Assembly (NCBI GenBank): GCA_030642845.1
Contig: DAOWMZ010000007.1
Span: 1-15,772 of the forward strand
DNA from: Candidatus Zixiibacteriota bacterium
GTDB lineage: Bacteria; Zixibacteria; MSB-5A5; GN15; FEB-12
DNA length: 15,772 nt
Direction: 5' to 3'
Below, piece by piece: positions 1 to 14,189 of the stretch. The notes below the pieces were generated by a model. That model saw only the letters and a list, made by a program, of their open reading frames with translations, searched no databases and was not told the DNA's origin. Position 1 is the first letter of the stretch, and every line of letters starts with the position of its first letter. The translations under genes and the position numbers were made by a program.

Positions 1-1286
1 ATGATGAGTTAGAAATTTCTCATACTCTTAATAATATGGGCAATATATACTGGATTGCAAGTGATCTAAATAAGGCTCTACAAAATTATCGCAAGGCACT
101 GAAAATCCAAAGACGTCTCGTTATTGTTGAAGACATAGCCTCGACTCTTAGTAACATAGCTTCAATCTACGCCCTTAAAGGGGATTTCAAAAGGGGTATT
201 AGAATACTTAATCTCTCTCTTAAACTCAAAAAAGAAATTGGGAACAAAGTTGAGATCGCTCGCACCCTTAATAATCTTGGTTATTGTTTTCATAGCAGTG
301 GAGATCACTATAAGGCAGTAAACAGCCTAACTGAATCACTCGAATTAAACCGACAAGTTGGAAACAAAAAGGAAATTTTATATAATCTTGAAAATCTTAC
401 CACTTTAATGATAACCGCTGGGCAACTAAAAGAATCTTTAAGTTATCTCAAAGAGGGTATTTTAATCTCTGATCAGGTGGGTGATAAAAACCATTTTGGA
501 ATATTCCAGTTGAATATGGCTACTGTCCTTCGACGCATGGGACAATTCGGACAGGCAGAAAAGTGTTTAGCAACAGTTAAAGAAATAATTGACAGTTCTG
601 ATAACAAAAACCTTAAAATAATTCTTATGAATGCACGCGCTTCTATTCGTTTAGCTATAGGTGATAATATAAATGCAGAAAATATCATTATTGAAGCAAT
701 ATCTCTTGCAGAAGAAATTAATAATCGTCCGGAAAAATTGAACTCACTTTTGATTTTAACAAAAATTAATAATACGCCCGAAATTATTAAACAGGCACTC
801 TCGTTAACAGATGAGTTGTCTCTGAATCGTGAAAAGATCTTAATCAAAAACAATATGCTCAGCAACAATTTAAATTCCAAGGCTAATGTTGAGACCCAAA
901 ATATTGTTGAAGAGATTGAGAGAGACTTGCACAGCATGATGGAAGATGTTGAAATTGCTGAAATTCAGATAAACCTTGCTGAGTATTATTTTCAAAATAA
1001 TAAACATGACAAAGCTTTTGATTATGCAAATAAGGCTTCGCAAAAAGCTATTCTCTCAAATTTAATTCCTGAAATGATAAGGGCTAATATCCTATTAGGT
1101 AAAATCCAATTAACTAAAGGGGAATATGAAGCCTGTTTTGATTGTTACAAAAAAGGGATGAAGCTTACTCAGCAAATTTCATCCGGCTTGCTTACCGATG
1201 AAGATAAAATAATATTCCAGAACCATGAGATTATTCGTTCTCTACTTTCCGAGATTAACAAATTTAAAATGCAGACAGTCACTTAG
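1..1286 (+). CDS. TPR-repeat protein, 5' end outside window
   Basis: The reading frame is open to the left edge. Codons from position 3 (D-E-L-E-I-S-H-T-L-N-N) already fit a TPR helix, so the ATG at 36 is internal and the real start lies upstream. About 427 residues are visible. Repeats have the roughly 40-residue period of the TPR_12/MalT-like class, with the recurring pattern TLNNxGxxY..GD..KA....AL.L....GNK.EI. At least three clean copies cover the first 130 residues, then more diverged ones, with a final pair near the C-terminus (AEYYFQNNKHDKAFDYA and LGKIQLTKGEYEACFDCY). There is no signal peptide or catalytic domain in the visible part. Such arrays are often the C-terminal scaffold of protein kinases, cyclases or AAA regulators; which one applies here cannot be told. 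It is AT-rich and convergent with the peptide gene at 1350-1442. Confidence 0.85.
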   Translation, partial: DELEISHTLNNMGNIYWIASDLNKALQNYRKALKIQRRLVIVEDIASTLSNIASIYALKGDFKRGIRILNLSLKLKKEIGNKVEIARTLNNLGYCFHSSGDHYKAVNSLTESLELNRQVGNKKEILYNLENLTTLMITAGQLKESLSYLKEGILISDQVGDKNHFGIFQLNMATVLRRMGQFGQAEKCLATVKEIIDSSDNKNLKIILMNARASIRLAIGDNINAENIIIEAISLAEEINNRPEKLNSLLILTKINNTPEIIKQALSLTDELSLNREKILIKNNMLSNNLNSKANVETQNIVEEIERDLHSMMEDVEIAEIQINLAEYYFQNNKHDKAFDYANKASQKAILSNLIPEMIRANILLGKIQLTKGEYEACFDCYKKGMKLTQQISSGLLTDEDKIIFQNHEIIRSLLSEINKFKMQTVT

Positions 1287-1298
1287 ATAATAAAAAAA

Positions 1299-1322
1299 GG
1301 CAGTCCGCCTAGGCGGACTGCC
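1299..1322 (-). terminator. Rho-independent terminator of the small peptide gene
   Basis: A perfect 24-nt palindrome (ggcagtccgcct/aggcggactgcc) gives a GC-rich stem of about 10-12 bp. Read on the minus strand it is followed by TTTTTTTATTA (1288-1298), the classic intrinsic terminator form. On the plus strand no T-run follows, so it mainly serves the minus-strand peptide gene ending at 1350. It also lies 12 bp past the stop of the convergent TPR gene. Confidence 0.85.
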
Positions 1323-1333
1323 CTAAGATCAGC

Positions 1334-1349: not shown

Positions 1350-1442
1350 TTACGGACCAATTTGGAACTGGCCACCCTGGCTCAGACCGATTGGTGCGAT
1401 ACGTGCCTCTAGGACTTCCAAAGAGAGCTCGTAATTAATCAT
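1350..1442 (-). CDS. Small peptide (30 aa), candidate substrate of the adjacent PqqD-M50-HlyD protein
   Basis: This ORF reads ATG to TAA on the minus strand and encodes 30 residues. It begins MINYELSLEVLEARIAP and ends in a Gly/Gln-rich tail, LSQGGQFQIGP. Three things argue that it is real. The Shine-Dalgarno AGGAGGTG sits 6 nt before the ATG. A strong intrinsic terminator follows 27 nt after the stop. It also lies directly downstream, on the same strand, of a protein with a PqqD-like N-terminus. PqqD-like (RRE) domains are known to bind leader peptides of ribosomally made, modified peptides. The amphipathic N-terminal half (YELSLEVLEARI) could be a leader helix and the tail a core. There is no Cys, Ser-rich core or GG cleavage site of bacteriocin type, and no radical SAM or cyclase gene nearby, so the product could be a simple processed signal peptide. 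Function is inferred. Confidence 0.72.
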   Translation of the reverse strand: MINYELSLEVLEARIAPIGLSQGGQFQIGP

Positions 1443-1448
1443 AGGTAA

Positions 1449-1456
1449 CACCTCCT
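1449..1456 (-). promoter_or_regulatory. Very strong ribosome binding site of the small peptide
   Basis: cacctcct on the plus strand is AGGAGGTG on the minus strand, a full match to the 16S anti-Shine-Dalgarno, 6 nt from the ATG at 1442. It is among the strongest ribosome binding sites in the window and is the main evidence that the 30-codon ORF is translated. The upstream protease gene has no visible Shine-Dalgarno, so the peptide is probably made in large excess. Confidence 0.8.
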
Positions 1457-1471
1457 AATTAAGACACATAC

Positions 1472-1508
1472 ATATACTCTCAAACTTTAAAAGAGAGTAT
1501 ATTTTTTT
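1472..1508. terminator. Hairpin with plus-strand T-run: plus-strand terminator and/or peptide mRNA leader stem
   Basis: atatactctc (1472-1481) and gagagtatat (1493-1502) form a perfect 10-bp stem with an 11-nt loop. On the plus strand it is followed by a T7 run (1502-1508), so it could stop transcription that passes 1286 before it runs antisense into the protease gene. On the minus strand the same stem lies about 15 nt upstream of the peptide Shine-Dalgarno, where it would be a 5' stabilising stem-loop. Confidence 0.5.
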
Positions 1509-1524
1509 CAACATTGTTATTTTC

Positions 1525-1563
1525 AATATAATTATAAACGTAAGAATACCAAGAAGTATTCAA
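1525..1563 (-). promoter_or_regulatory. Possible promoter of the small peptide with an embedded inverted repeat
   Basis: On the minus strand TTGGTA (1552-1547) and TATATT (1530-1525) are 16 nt apart. A TATAAT (1536-1531) also occurs, but its best -35, TTGAAT (1563-1558), is 21 nt away. The inverted repeat gaatac-N6-gtattc (1544-1561) overlaps the -35 area and could be an operator. The rest of 1509-1637 is AT-rich without an ORF. It holds one more stem, gcggaaattatttccgc (1609-1625), just after the protease stop, which lacks a T-run. Confidence 0.35.
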
Positions 1564-1637
1564 AGAATATGAAAATAATTTAAAATAATTTAGGAATACG
1601 AACAGAATGCGGAAATTATTTCCGCGTTGGAACTATT

Positions 1638-3950
1638 TTACCACCACGACCAGAACTCGACACGGATAAATGACATCATTTTCCTTAATGTCATTTTATA
1701 TAATGAAGAATCCCCGATCTCAATTTTGGCATAACCGGTCATCCCTTTCTGGAGCAAATTGTCTTCATTTTCCACAATTACCGAAATCGGGAAATATGCC
1801 TGGTTATTATAAATGTTAGCAGAGAGTGGTATATGAGCCACATAGCCTTTAAAAGTATGATCAGGATAAGACCGAAGTTTTAATATTACAGGCTGGTTAA
1901 GCTCAATCAATTTAATATTGAAATCAGGAACCGGAACAAGTATTTCAATCTGGCGTGAATCCATGATCGAAAGAAAACCTTCACTGTTGCTATCATGAAC
2001 TTTTATAATCCCACTAATAGGAGCGTTGACAGATTGAGCTTCTTTTTGCTTTTCAAGAAAATCAACTTTTGCTTTCTGCTTGTTTATCTCAGCTCTGATG
2101 ACCGCTTCTTCCTCAGGTTTGGGAGGGGATTTTAATAAATTGAGTCGTGCAGTTTTATTGGCTACTTCAGCTTCAGCAATTTTAACTTCGGATTGAATTC
2201 TATCATATTCCTCCTTTGAAGTTAGATTCTTTTGGAACAACTCCTGAACACGAGTCAGATCTTTTTTAAGTTTAACCAGATTAAATTCAGCCGCTTCAAC
2301 CTGGGCATCGGCTTCGTTGATCTCTTCCGGTTTGGGAGGTGATTTAAGGAGAGCTAATTGTCCCTCAAATTTATCTAACTCAGCAATATTGGCGATTATC
2401 TCTTTGGTCACCTGATTGGATATCAAAATGGCAAGAGTATCATCAATGTCAACCCTCTGACCATCTTTGACAAAAGGAATTAACTGCAGTGAAGCCATTT
2501 CATTGGAGGTCATCTGAAGATAATTGGTTTTGTTTCCCGGGTCTGCTCCACGTCGAGTAATCTTACTTTCCAACAATCCGAACTCGTTCAGAAGTAGAGT
2601 AAATTCTGTAATCGGACGAACATCAACCTCGCCTGATACACGATGCGGTAAAGGTACGGCAAAAAAACCGATAGCAAAACTGCCAAGGGCAATTAGATAA
2701 ATTATAATCTTAGAAGGTTTTTTCATCTCCGTCCTCTTATATTTAAAATGCTTAATCAATCCCTTTAATAATTCAAAAATACCAGATCTTAAAGCATAAA
2801 TAATAACTACCGTAAATATAAGTAAGCCCCATCCGCCAGTCTTGGCAAGTAAGAACTTTGCTGCAATTACAAACAGGTAAACCAGCAAAAACAGTGAATA
2901 TGCTAAAGCAAAGAGAGAGTAATAAAGATATATTCTGCGTTTTCTTTCTGGAATTTCAATTTTATCAATGGGCCAGCCCAGAATGTTTCTCTTGAAAACA
3001 GACCCTAAGTAATCAAATGCTTTCTTTCGCAAATTGGGAATATCAACCCAATCCGAAAGTAGATAATAGCCGTCGAGTTTTATCAGGGGATTAAAATTAA
3101 AGAGCATTGTCACCCAGCAAACAACTACAATAACCCGGGCAACTTCGTTTATAAAAATACCGGGCACAGTAACTCGCCATAGAAATACTGCCAGGGCAAA
3201 TAATAATAATTGCATAACCGGTCCAGCAAATGTAACTGCCAGACGATGAGATTTCTTTTTGAATAACCAGGCATCGGAAAGATCAGAGTAAAAGCATGGC
3301 TGGAAATATAATAACAGGAATCCAATCTCTCGCACCTCTCCCCCATAGTACCGGCAGACTACAGCATGAGCAAATTCATGAAAGCTGATAATTATAAAAA
3401 GAGAGATTACTATTACAAGTATTGAGCTGATACTGTAAAGATCTCCTAAATCGATATAGAAATATTGAGAATTAGCAGCCATCACCAAAAATCCAAGAAA
3501 GATTAACAGCATTGTAACGCCAAACCAGAATTTACTATGAAACGGACTATACAGCGATGTCAACCAGTCCAGGAATCGACCCGGATTAAAACCTTTCAGC
3601 TTGATAAATAAAAGTTTGGAGAAAAAGGTCTTTCCACGAGCAGCATTGTAGCTGGCCCGGGAAGTTGCTTGTTCAGCCCGGCCATCATCCAGGAAAAATA
3701 ACTTCTCAAGCAGAGTTACAAATTTTTTTACCGCTTCTGCATCAATATTAAGATTAAACTTTTCTCGAAATCTATTCGCAACTTCTTCATAGGGGGTCTT
3801 TCCGTCAAGCTGCCTGATTAGCCAGTACTCCGGTTCACGAAGTCGAAAGTAGCTTCCCGTTATCGGATCTTTTATATTACAGACGGTCACACCGTCAATT
3901 TCTGCAGTAGAGGCAACTAAGTCACTTCTAAGCTTGGCATAATCAGACAT
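1638..3950 (-). CDS. PqqD-like domain / M50 membrane metalloprotease / HlyD-like adaptor fusion
   Basis: The protein has 770 residues. Residues 1-90 resemble PqqD-like (RRE) domains (fxLxxpeywLirqLDGktpyeeVa). Residues 140-390 hold several membrane segments and the M50 site-2-protease core: zinc motif HEFAH at 191-195 and the partner motif NPLIKLDG at 287-294, whose Asp293 is the expected third ligand. Residues 413-432 are a further membrane span. Then come an HlyD/membrane-fusion arm with a lipoyl half-motif (FVKDGQRVDIDDTL, 493-506), a coiled-coil hairpin at about 515-637, the second lipoyl half (VNAPISGIIKV, 641-651) and a beta-barrel. SPPKPEE occurs at 537 and 608, flanking the two arms of the hairpin. 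The known relatives are M50 peptide maturases/exporters annotated 'putative peptide zinc metalloprotease'. I infer that it binds, cuts and hands out a small peptide, most likely the one encoded at 1350-1442. The ATG at 3950 has no Shine-Dalgarno. All three catalytic ligands are present. Confidence 0.88.
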   Translation of the reverse strand: MSDYAKLRSDLVASTAEIDGVTVCNIKDPITGSYFRLREPEYWLIRQLDGKTPYEEVANRFREKFNLNIDAEAVKKFVTLLEKLFFLDDGRAEQATSRASYNAARGKTFFSKLLFIKLKGFNPGRFLDWLTSLYSPFHSKFWFGVTMLLIFLGFLVMAANSQYFYIDLGDLYSISSILVIVISLFIIISFHEFAHAVVCRYYGGEVREIGFLLLYFQPCFYSDLSDAWLFKKKSHRLAVTFAGPVMQLLLFALAVFLWRVTVPGIFINEVARVIVVVCWVTMLFNFNPLIKLDGYYLLSDWVDIPNLRKKAFDYLGSVFKRNILGWPIDKIEIPERKRRIYLYYSLFALAYSLFLLVYLFVIAAKFLLAKTGGWGLLIFTVVIIYALRSGIFELLKGLIKHFKYKRTEMKKPSKIIIYLIALGSFAIGFFAVPLPHRVSGEVDVRPITEFTLLLNEFGLLESKITRRGADPGNKTNYLQMTSNEMASLQLIPFVKDGQRVDIDDTLAILISNQVTKEIIANIAELDKFEGQLALLKSPPKPEEINEADAQVEAAEFNLVKLKKDLTRVQELFQKNLTSKEEYDRIQSEVKIAEAEVANKTARLNLLKSPPKPEEEAVIRAEINKQKAKVDFLEKQKEAQSVNAPISGIIKVHDSNSEGFLSIMDSRQIEILVPVPDFNIKLIELNQPVILKLRSYPDHTFKGYVAHIPLSANIYNNQAYFPISVIVENEDNLLQKGMTGYAKIEIGDSSLYKMTLRKMMSFIRVEFWSWW

Positions 3951-11450: not shown

Positions 11451-14189
11451 ATGATAAAAACCGGACACAACAACCTAACTATATCCGGGCTAATATTTCT
11501 TTGTTGTTTTATTATTTATTTCAGCAATATTTTCGCTGCAACAAAAAGCCAAACCCCTGTTTCTGCTAATACTATCAAACTCGAACCAAGGACTATTCCG
11601 GTAAAACCGCATAATACTGTAATTAATTCTCATACTAATATCTCCCATGTTGTTGTTAAGTTTCATGATGATTCCGAGGTAAGAAAATCAGGTGACAGGC
11701 TAATTACAAAAAGCGGGACAGCTTCAATGATTGAACCCAACAACAGGCTTAGCATGTATCTTGGGACAGATAGAATGAGAAAGCTGTTCAACAACGTTTC
11801 CGAATCAAAATTGGATTTAACTCGGGAAGTATTGCAACTGAATAATAAAATTGAATTGGCTGATCTTAATAATTATTATCGGATTGAAGTCAGTGATTAT
11901 CAGGAAGCTGAAAATCTTATTAATGAACTTAATGCTCTTAAAGAAGTTGAGATTGCATATTATAAACCAATGTCCGAACCAGCTGGCGACATTGACCCTC
12001 CCACCCCTGATTATGTAGCCAATCAGGACTATCGTGAAGCTGCACCTGATGGAGTTGATGCTGATTATGCTAACACGCTTTCTGGAGGAGACGGTGCAGG
12101 AGTTAAAATAATTGATATTGAAGGGGGTTGGAAAGATACCCATGAAGATCTGGACAAAGCTCTTGGAGGACTTATTACTCCTTCACAGATTGAAGATTTA
12201 TCCTGGCGCAATCATGGAACAGCAGTAATTGGTGCAATGATTGCCGGTGATAACGGATATGGTGTTACAGGAATATGCCCCGGAGCAGATATTGGAATGA
12301 TATCGATTGCGACTCTCTCTGTAAGCGAAGCAATCATAACTGCTGCTGATACTCTCCAACCGGGAGATCTTATTTTGATAGAACTTCACGCTCCCGGACC
12401 TCATTATAATTTTCAAACCCGCCCCGACCAATTAGGATATGTTTGTGAGGAATACTGGCAGGATAATTTTGATGCTATCCAATATGCCTGGGCAAAAGGA
12501 ATTATAGTTATCGAAGCCGGTGGTAATGGTGCTGAAGATTTTGATGATGCTGGAATATATGGTTCCCTGTTTGATACAACATACCGAAATTCCCATGCTA
12601 TTATCGTTGGGGCCGGTGCAGAAGCTGCCTCTGCAGATAACCTTCAGAAAAAGGGTTTCTCGAATTACGGTGAAAGAGTCAATCTGCAAGGGTATGGTTC
12701 GGGTGTATATACTACCGGATATGGCGGTCTGTTTGATGGTGGTGGTGATGAGAACCAATACTACACCTCTTCTTTCAGTGGGACATCATCAGCCTCACCA
12801 ATAATTACCGGAGCGGCTGCCTGTCTTCAGGGTTACTATAAAGCTACCTATGGCACACCTCTTACATCAGATCAAATCCGTGATATACTTGTCCCTACCG
12901 GAACTCCACAGCTTGGAGATACTTTTTTACATATTGGACCACGCCCTGACCTGCTTACCGCCATTAGTACTCTGACTGATCCGGCATCATTATTTGTTAA
13001 TCCTCTAATGTTGGATACGACCCTTGATGAAGGCGAGCAAGCGGTGATGTCTATTTGGATTCATAATCGCTCGATAATTGATAATTTTGATTTTACTATT
13101 TTTGATAACGACTCATTAGCAAAAGTAAGTGAAAACTGGCTTACGGTATCCCCTCAATCAGGGATAGTTTATGCTGCTGATTCAATCGAAATTGATGTTA
13201 TGCTTGATGCCTCGTTGTTAGAAGATCGAATTAAGTTCTATAAAGGGATTCTTGAAATTAACTGGGGACTGGAAGGGGGCATTCTTGATTCACTTACATA
13301 TTTGCCGGTCTTTCTGCAAGTTCCCTGTTATGACACTACCTATACTTCCGTTTCATCTGATGAACCCTCAGGACCAACTTATAACTGGTTTTCCGCTTTT
13401 GATAACGGCTGGAGAATACCTTTCTCCTTCTATTATGGTTCCGGCTCTAATGTTCTCGATGATGGAACCACCGGCCCTTATGATATCGGGTTTGAATTCA
13501 ATTTTTATGATTCATTCTATACCGAAGTTTATCTTGGGGTAAACGGAGCAATTTCATTCGAGGAAGAGGATTTGAATATTAACGGATATTTTTCAAATCT
13601 TGAACTTCCGGGAGTACCATTTAAAACCTTTGTTGCTCCGCTATGGTCTGATTTGATTTTTGACACCGCCTTTGTTGCTGATTGCGGGATTTATTTCTAT
13701 ACCAATTATGAAGACACTTGTGTGATAGAATGGCATCAGCCGGCCAATTTTAATCAGGTTGGTGATACAACAATGGATTTTGAGGTTATTCTTACTCGCA
13801 ATGGCGATATTACTTTTCAATATAAAAATATCGGCACCAGCGGGCTCGAGCAAATTGCCCTGGTTGGAGTCTCTGATTTAGACTGCAAGGCATTAAGTCA
13901 TCTCGATAATAATGAACCAATTGAGCATGAGATTACAGTATTTGAGGCTATCTTGTTTGAAAATTCAGAGTATGTCTGGATTCAAACTGGTAATGTCGAT
14001 GGCTCGCCAGGAATTCTTGTTTCTGATTTAGTATTTTTGGTTGATTTCCTCTTTAAAGGAGGATCGGCTCCGGTACCCGAAAAATCGGGTGATGTAAATT
14101 GTGATAATGGTTTGAATGTTGCTGATTTAGTATTTTTAGTAGATTATATTTTCAAGGGTGGTCCTTCCCCCTGCTATTATTTGCAATAG
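11451..14189 (+). CDS. Secreted S8 (subtilisin-like) protease with C-terminal dockerin-like repeats
   Basis: The protein has 912 residues. A signal peptide spans about 1-29 (cleavage near IFA-A). Residues 60-180 look like a propeptide (VVVKFHDD..., YYRIEVSD...). The S8 domain at 200-510 has Asp222 (VKIIDIEGGW), His255 (SWRNHGTAVIG), oxyanion Asn359 (EAGGNG) and Ser446 (SFSGTSSASP). The catalytic-site motifs are atypical, with DIEGGW in place of D(S/T)G and NHGTAV in place of HGTHVAG, but the triad is complete. Next comes a BACON-like Ig domain (about 512-610, WLTVSPQSGIV), then a beta-sandwich at about 640-840 (GVNGAISF, FVAPLWSDL) like those in surface proteins. The last 66 residues are two dockerin-like repeats (VSDLVFLVDFLF and GDVNCDNGLNVADLVFLVDYIF) with calcium-loop acidic residues. 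It is probably exported and attached to, or assembled on, the cell exterior. Confidence 0.92.
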   Translation: MIKTGHNNLTISGLIFLCCFIIYFSNIFAATKSQTPVSANTIKLEPRTIPVKPHNTVINSHTNISHVVVKFHDDSEVRKSGDRLITKSGTASMIEPNNRLSMYLGTDRMRKLFNNVSESKLDLTREVLQLNNKIELADLNNYYRIEVSDYQEAENLINELNALKEVEIAYYKPMSEPAGDIDPPTPDYVANQDYREAAPDGVDADYANTLSGGDGAGVKIIDIEGGWKDTHEDLDKALGGLITPSQIEDLSWRNHGTAVIGAMIAGDNGYGVTGICPGADIGMISIATLSVSEAIITAADTLQPGDLILIELHAPGPHYNFQTRPDQLGYVCEEYWQDNFDAIQYAWAKGIIVIEAGGNGAEDFDDAGIYGSLFDTTYRNSHAIIVGAGAEAASADNLQKKGFSNYGERVNLQGYGSGVYTTGYGGLFDGGGDENQYYTSSFSGTSSASPIITGAAACLQGYYKATYGTPLTSDQIRDILVPTGTPQLGDTFLHIGPRPDLLTAISTLTDPASLFVNPLMLDTTLDEGEQAVMSIWIHNRSIIDNFDFTIFDNDSLAKVSENWLTVSPQSGIVYAADSIEIDVMLDASLLEDRIKFYKGILEINWGLEGGILDSLTYLPVFLQVPCYDTTYTSVSSDEPSGPTYNWFSAFDNGWRIPFSFYYGSGSNVLDDGTTGPYDIGFEFNFYDSFYTEVYLGVNGAISFEEEDLNINGYFSNLELPGVPFKTFVAPLWSDLIFDTAFVADCGIYFYTNYEDTCVIEWHQPANFNQVGDTTMDFEVILTRNGDITFQYKNIGTSGLEQIALVGVSDLDCKALSHLDNNEPIEHEITVFEAILFENSEYVWIQTGNVDGSPGILVSDLVFLVDFLFKGGSAPVPEKSGDVNCDNGLNVADLVFLVDYIFKGGPSPCYYLQ

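Follow-up and report, generated by a model that had tools for sequence, protein, structure and literature searches.

The epipeptide pathway includes a radical SAM epimerase, and to our knowledge the EpeP/YydH family carries neither an RRE nor an HlyD arm. In RRNPP systems, TPR arrays bind peptides, the receptor is an HTH regulator or a Rap phosphatase, and the peptides travel out via Sec and in via Opp. In daptide loci, short ORFs with the leader ELExMEAP lie next to the gene of a site-2 protease that carries a fused RRE; the MpaA1 leader is numbered from E(−8) to P(−1), L(−7) and M(−4) are reported as essential for the first modification, and the RRE used in that step belongs to a different protein, MpaB (PMC10036551). 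EpeP/YydH (NF058609) is described as an M50 membrane protease that matures a small peptide and is thought to cut and export it (PMC10885120).

In the window (the whole 15,772-nucleotide stretch of Zixibacteria DNA analyzed here), one minus-strand gene encodes a protein joining a predicted RRE, an M50 protease domain, and an HlyD-like arm; a peptide gene follows on the same strand after 195 bases. A plus-strand TPR ORF converges on the pair and ends 63 bases from the peptide stop. The features are as follows:

3..1286, plus strand: 3' part of a Ser/Thr-kinase-TPR gene, truncated by the contig end and convergent with the peptide gene
1297..1324, minus strand: terminator (12-pair hairpin and T-tail) between the peptide gene and the convergent TPR ORF
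1350..1442, stop included, minus strand: precursor peptide gene, 30 aa, MINYELSLEVLEARIAPIGLSQGGQFQIGP (ORF, homologue alignment)
within 1350..1442, minus strand: leader YELSLEVLEARIAP and predicted core IGLSQGGQFQIGP, with the cut site placed by the daptide register
1449..1456, minus strand: Shine-Dalgarno AGGAGGTG of the peptide gene (sequence)
1609..1625, minus strand: weak hairpin directly 3' of the fusion gene, a possible partial terminator parting the fusion and peptide genes
1638..3950, minus strand: RRE-M50-HlyD fusion protein, 770 aa (ORF, domain searches, motif conservation)
1641..2654, minus strand: membrane-fusion part (HlyD/EmrA/MacA-like), residues ~433–770, with a conserved C-terminal RVEFWSWW
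3366..3380, minus strand: HEFAH zinc motif of the M50 domain, residues 191–195
3681..3950, minus strand: predicted RRE (PqqD-like) N-terminal domain, residues ~1–90 (profile and predicted fold)

The window also encodes an S8 subtilase-type protease at 11451–14189, whose C-terminal repeats look dockerin-like by eye.

The M50 domain is recognized by Pfam PF02163 (E 1.6e-9), and HExxH (H191, E192, H195) and LDG are invariant across 40 homologues, the motifs expected of an active M50 protease. An RRE fold is predicted for the N terminus: The window protein scores weakly against PF05402 (17.4 bits, E 0.0057, under the 23.4 cutoff), and two of the 10 N termini tested exceed that cutoff (L118, 26.8; L134, 24.0). 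An RRE domain in the processing protein is a RiPP criterion, and the predicted model places one in the fusion. The C-terminal half matches EmrA/MacA periplasmic adaptors by sequence profile and fold (TIGR01730, E 8.2e-16, below that model's cutoff; profile of this part against EmrA 4tko, E 3.7e-18), but here one polypeptide carries the adaptor C-terminal to an RRE-M50 membrane protease, and neither an energizing partner transporter nor a TolC partner recurs beside the fusion gene. Domain profiles, predicted RRE fold, and invariant HExxH together uphold the single-chain PqqD-M50-HlyD architecture put forward by an earlier sequence-only reading of this DNA. Current annotations of such proteins capture one piece at a time: an adaptor, a site-2 protease, or a PqqD chaperone. 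Homologues were collected with alignment A2, which succeeded as a query of the contig database where the single protein gave no match; the best 80 of 279 matches were kept and gave 77 loci. Fusion alignments omit L086 (a frameshifted match) and L131 (an internal stop).

The NCBIfam model of the daptide intramembrane protease (NF041824) aligns to residues 32–388 (E 1.4e-65), with a score of 222 under its cutoff of 300. As described in PMC10036551 and PMC12338566, daptide systems (MpaA/MpaP, DapA/DapP) share with this locus an RRE plus intramembrane site-2 protease and multiple short ORFs nearby; in the same register, daptide ELExMEAP and ELExRIAP here have E, L, E, A, and P in common and differ at M(−4) and E(−3). 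The uniting of binding, cutting, and export in one protein had been regarded as unusual. Since a daptide RRE-site-2 protease beside ELExMEAP ORFs is already known (PMC10036551), "bind and cut" has a precedent, and what differs is the HlyD arm, which is fused here, unlike in daptides. According to the same sources, daptides have an invariant C-terminal Thr, carry genes for an oxidative decarboxylase, an aminotransferase, a methyltransferase, and ABC proteins, and occur mainly in Actinomycetota and Bacillota; here, no listed Zixibacteria peptide ends in Thr, none of those genes is among 17 recurrent neighbor clusters, and the phyla are diderm. Because the C-terminal Thr and the tailoring genes were not found, we do not class the system as a daptide. 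It stands apart by its HlyD arm, the absence of tailoring genes from its recurrent neighbors, the phyla in which it occurs, and a kinase link described below.

The fusion gives a weak match to the EpeP/YydH family (NF058609, E 1.5e-10), and in contrast to the epipeptide pathway, no radical SAM gene is recurrent among its neighbors. All 17 recurrent neighbor clusters, defined as present in at least 4 of 66 loci, were Pfam-scanned; ABC, radical SAM, cyclase, and other tailoring genes are absent from them, and recurrent neighbors include no recognizable immunity gene, in agreement with what had been read from the window alone. On this basis we rejected the idea that the locus is a conserved operon including radical SAM, ABC, or cyclase genes. 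Searches of open-licence papers turned up neither the leader family nor the three-part system.

The small gene had been credited with a near-perfect Shine-Dalgarno and its own terminator, and both are present (AGGAGGTG at 1456–1449; hairpin at 1324–1297). Shine-Dalgarno sequences resembling AGGAGGTG also lie upstream of the homologues displayed, one of the two sets of which had required one. The family leader has the consensus YxLxVExLExRIAP and is under purifying selection (pN 0.16 vs. pS 0.74, pN/pS 0.22; 14 leader codons, 27 Zixibacteria copies). Its daptide register predicts short cores: If cut as in daptides, the window peptide yields 13 residues, and 91 Zixibacteria cores span 6–20 residues (median 8; 6–8 in 71/91). 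Ser occurs in all 91 of these cores, S-x-G-G in 54, and a GGQ terminus in 34.

A regex census of short ORFs, its pattern composed after the first peptides had been inspected, returned 78 ORFs in the 77 loci (1.03 Mb), 77 of them on the fusion strand and one, chance-like, on the opposite strand; eight Markov shuffles gave 0–6 with the same regex. At least one short ORF was present in 56/77 fusion loci, and the 21 misses include four loci with nearly no 3' flank (L062, L078, L103, L107). Among the genomes of missed loci, peptides were later detected for L062, L070, L107, L110, L114, L115, L117, L121, L125, L128, and L136, and a peptide search found none for L132 and L135. The expectations that fusion homologues have a conserved short ORF nearby, and that the 30-codon ORF is conserved above the neutral rate, thus survive; selection, conservation, and shuffles rule out a chance ORF. 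The LExR of the leader resembles the LEPR-8K/LEPR-XLL motif, presumably only superficially. That motif (NF012209) belongs to the N termini of giant surface proteins (see PMC10868602). We rejected the leader as a LEPR-like export signal of large surface proteins, since a scan of 61 genomes with profile A1, built from 30 peptides, picks out the dedicated short ORFs; its off-family matches there are weak and scattered (E 0.024 or worse), with one exception at 3e-4 in G056. The window peptide has no NCBIfam match, NF012209 matches none of 10 other-phylum peptides, and it gave no match in G000, though control genomes also gave none.

The peptide is conserved and paired with the fusion protein. Among 132 Zixibacteria genomes, many of them incomplete assemblies, the fusion is found in 101, the peptide in 104, and both in 97; 4 have the fusion alone, 7 the peptide alone, and 24 neither. 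The pairing, originally drawn from adjacency and domain content, thus recurs as a peptide in 97/101 fusion-bearing vs. 7/31 fusion-less genomes (Fisher P = 3e-16, kinship ignored), and leaving out the 29 profile-source genomes gives 68/72 vs. 7/31 (Fisher P = 2e-13, kinship again ignored). The profile search found no peptide match in fusion-positive G119, G135, G140, and G161. In a set of 61 relatives, 47 carry the fusion, each in single copy (E 1e-20), and every one of the 47 also gives an A1 peptide match (E ≤ 1.1e-7), as do, among them, 18/18 that contributed no row to the profile; among the 14 without a fusion match, 3 have a peptide (G019, G027, G057). G011 has lost both fusion and peptide and kept the kinase, with its CLC and kinase genes adjacent. 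In G027 (84% complete), peptide and kinase are retained and no fusion was found; in G057 (83% complete), which likewise yielded no fusion, the peptide faces a TPR fragment, and the assembly seems to have split the kinase gene. Genus g30 has as many as seven peptide copies per genome, and most of its cores start S-[RK]-[YWF]-G.

The two-gene system first proposed holds as a peptide-fusion pair, but in Zixibacteria the convergent Ser/Thr-kinase-TPR gene also belongs. The window TPR ORF (3..1286) aligns to residues 553–970 of a 985-aa kinase-TPR orthologue, and neighbor clustering placed a convergent 994-aa protein (Pkinase + TPR, Pfam) in 32/39 Zixibacteria loci and a GAF-HisKA-HATPase protein also in 32/39. 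With 35 further loci taken around peptide matches, mostly picked for having no adjacent fusion, the set comprised 91 distinct peptides in 104 loci. A kinase-TPR gene is faced by 62 of the 80 peptides with sufficient 3' flank and lies downstream on the peptide strand in 0/80; an upstream kinase or TPR match occurs for 1/91. Given 1.2 kb on both flanks, 22/26 peptides with no fusion within ≤3.2 kb upstream face the gene, as do 32/46 with the fusion upstream. In one f4 genome (G039), the fusion is ~22 kb away and the peptide nonetheless faces the kinase; the remaining f4 matches have similar fusion-peptide spacing when both are on one contig. Within Zixibacteria, the kinase-TPR gene is therefore a steadier neighbor of the peptide than the fusion gene. 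Of the 18 peptides not facing a kinase, 12 come from genus g30 (L068, L072, L210) and 6 from elsewhere (L094, L099, L104, L190, L203, L205). That genus has only paralogue-level matches and no clear kinase orthologue despite its many peptides, so the kinase is not always needed.

The catalytic residues of the kinase do not vary among 16 aligned proteins, and in a motif search restricted by position, 45/53 proteins carried both kinase motifs. No hydrophobic 19-mer occurs in 28/39 members of the kinase-TPR cluster, and the protein is predicted to be cytosolic. TPR kinases are common (11–56 and 19–93 first-look candidates per genome in two surveys). At E 1e-60, the kinase matches 46/47 fusion-positive and 6/14 fusion-negative genomes of the smaller set, but phylum-wide this threshold is uninformative, as paralogues match in 128/132 genomes; at 1e-85, a threshold picked post hoc, it matches 99/104 peptide-positive vs. 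10/28 peptide-negative genomes (Fisher P = 4e-11).

Other genes recur beyond the kinases: an Omp85-barrel gene in 27/39 loci (e.g., L066:7525–9561) and a DUF4390 gene in 13/39 (e.g., L072:13577–14209). In L137 (1462–6942 and 7491), a kinase-AAA-TPR-GAF-sigma54 protein lies next to the fusion, alongside a peptide whose predicted core is NVIWVS, and in L098 (11099–13963) a TPR-sigma54-Fis protein adjoins the fusion; such proteins being common, both may be chance.

Leader peptides co-occur with the fusion in other phyla as well (labeled Verrucomicrobia, Acidobacteria, Eisenbacteria, Planctomycetes, Rokubacteria, and others), although most of these records are metagenome-assembled and individual labels may be wrong. 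Their cores are longer and Gly/Asn/Pro-rich, and the peptides lie mainly upstream, often in several tandem copies with tails that recur between phyla. Across L108–L138 (e.g., L124:6592–7826, L133:52–801), tandem leader peptides carry the cross-phylum tail types GYEGQPGNQ, NPGNNNPPLNNTNNPGNEGTGGQVSTG, FPPGQFPSGNPAHAPG, and ALHNNPNNPNNNN. An A3 whole-genome search (E 0.01) found the family in 27/30 genomes, 15 of which had supplied A3 rows; 12/15 genomes without rows were positive. Two loci, L114 and L115 (the latter labeled Aminicenantes), carry tandem 31-aa peptides, nearly identical to one another, on the strand opposite the fusion: three or more, at L114:10300–10679 and L115:7800–8315, both minus strand and convergent with the fusion, with predicted core TRAAIAMG. 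A database search with 23 other-phylum peptides gave 2108 matches, and all 120 listed lack a Pfam domain. P0001 and P0041 bear signs of unit duplication: One of these ORFs contains a pair of leader-core units, and in the other the leader is doubled. The kinase cluster appears in 5/27 "far" loci, two of the five labeled Zixibacteria; with this rare kinase link and mostly long cores outside Zixibacteria, the machine is not specific to signaling.

Building on the established genes, conservation, co-occurrence, and orientation, and on folds that are predictions, we infer a sequence of leader binding, cleavage at a defined site, export, possibly re-entry of the core into the cell, and core-kinase binding. 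The conserved leader of the 30-aa precursor, ending ELExRIAP, would dock on the RRE domain, and the M50 domain would cleave after ...AP to release a short core (13 residues here, mostly 6–8 in relatives); such RRE-guided cleavage is probable. The HlyD/MFP part may then pass the core outward, perhaps to an outer-membrane factor, with the Omp85 barrel as a possible exit; for export we see the chances as even. In Zixibacteria the core would then signal to the convergently encoded Ser/Thr-kinase-TPR protein, with the TPR array as likely peptide-binding site and the adjoining GAF-histidine kinase as partner. Even where the fusion gene lies elsewhere, the peptide gene usually goes on facing the kinase gene; as the kinase seems capable of peptide binding, the peptide may act as a signal, and peptide binding by the TPR arrays of RRNPP makes a receptor role natural; kinase-directed signaling is plausible, at somewhat less than even odds. 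The likeness to RRNPP of Firmicutes is one of gene arrangement only: a short peptide gene adjoins a gene whose TPR product has no clear membrane segments. Here, a Ser/Thr kinase with TPRs, beside a GAF-histidine kinase, replaces the HTH regulator or Rap phosphatase, the leader is of RRE type, the genes are convergent, and the bacteria are diderm. As a whole, we hold with about balanced confidence the reading that a short, apparently untailored RiPP-type peptide owes its maturation to a single RRE-M50-HlyD protein and has a TPR kinase as its target.

An alternative keeps the same maturation machine and makes the core a bacteriocin-like antimicrobial whose production the kinase pair merely regulates. 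RRE/M50 proteases do serve bioactive RiPPs (daptides and epipeptides), and tandem copies with varied tails occur in genus g30 and other phyla; Zixibacteria cores, however, are short and conserved (S-x-G-G in 54/91, a GGQ end in 34/91), and recurrent neighbors include neither an ABC transporter nor a recognizable immunity gene, leaving this reading unlikely. The kinase mostly lacks a hydrophobic 19-mer, so an exported core must re-enter or else act inside. The peptide could accordingly be an intracellular regulatory ligand of the kinase, destroyed or removed by the fusion with no export, as G027 (peptide and kinase) and G057 (peptide and TPR fragment), where no fusion was found, would allow. 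Those genomes, however, are just 84% and 83% complete, the conserved leader is matched to an RRE-bearing protein, and fusion and peptide also co-occur in phyla that rarely show the kinase link; we consider this rather unlikely. Serine-bearing cores also allow the kinase a tailoring role, phosphorylating core Ser before export to give a phospho-RiPP, but this is quite improbable: Ser in 91/91 cores, the invariant catalytic residues (16 aligned; motif pair in 45/53), and the peptide-kinase gene link speak for it, whereas g30 cores retain Ser without a clear kinase orthologue, the large TPR array and adjoining GAF-histidine kinase fit signaling better, and the sequences are related and hence not independent.

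Returning to the reading of a matured peptide that acts on a TPR kinase, a wider version would make it a phylum-wide diderm circuit—unmodified pheromone, RRE-M50-HlyD export, and sensing by a TPR Ser/Thr kinase—with the same leader and machine, carrying exchangeable cores, as a general small-peptide export route in many phyla; we advance this tentatively, as more doubtful than the signaling step itself. Zixibacteria are known mostly from metagenomes, and peptide-to-kinase signaling is suggested in them here. The leader is constant and the cores vary, so the leader could be a simple export tag for short peptides. If true, the finding would add a family of small peptides that carry a leader, are widespread, and have gone essentially unannotated, with one protein serving to mature and export them; it would also make the role of the piecemeal-annotated RRE-M50-HlyD proteins testable.
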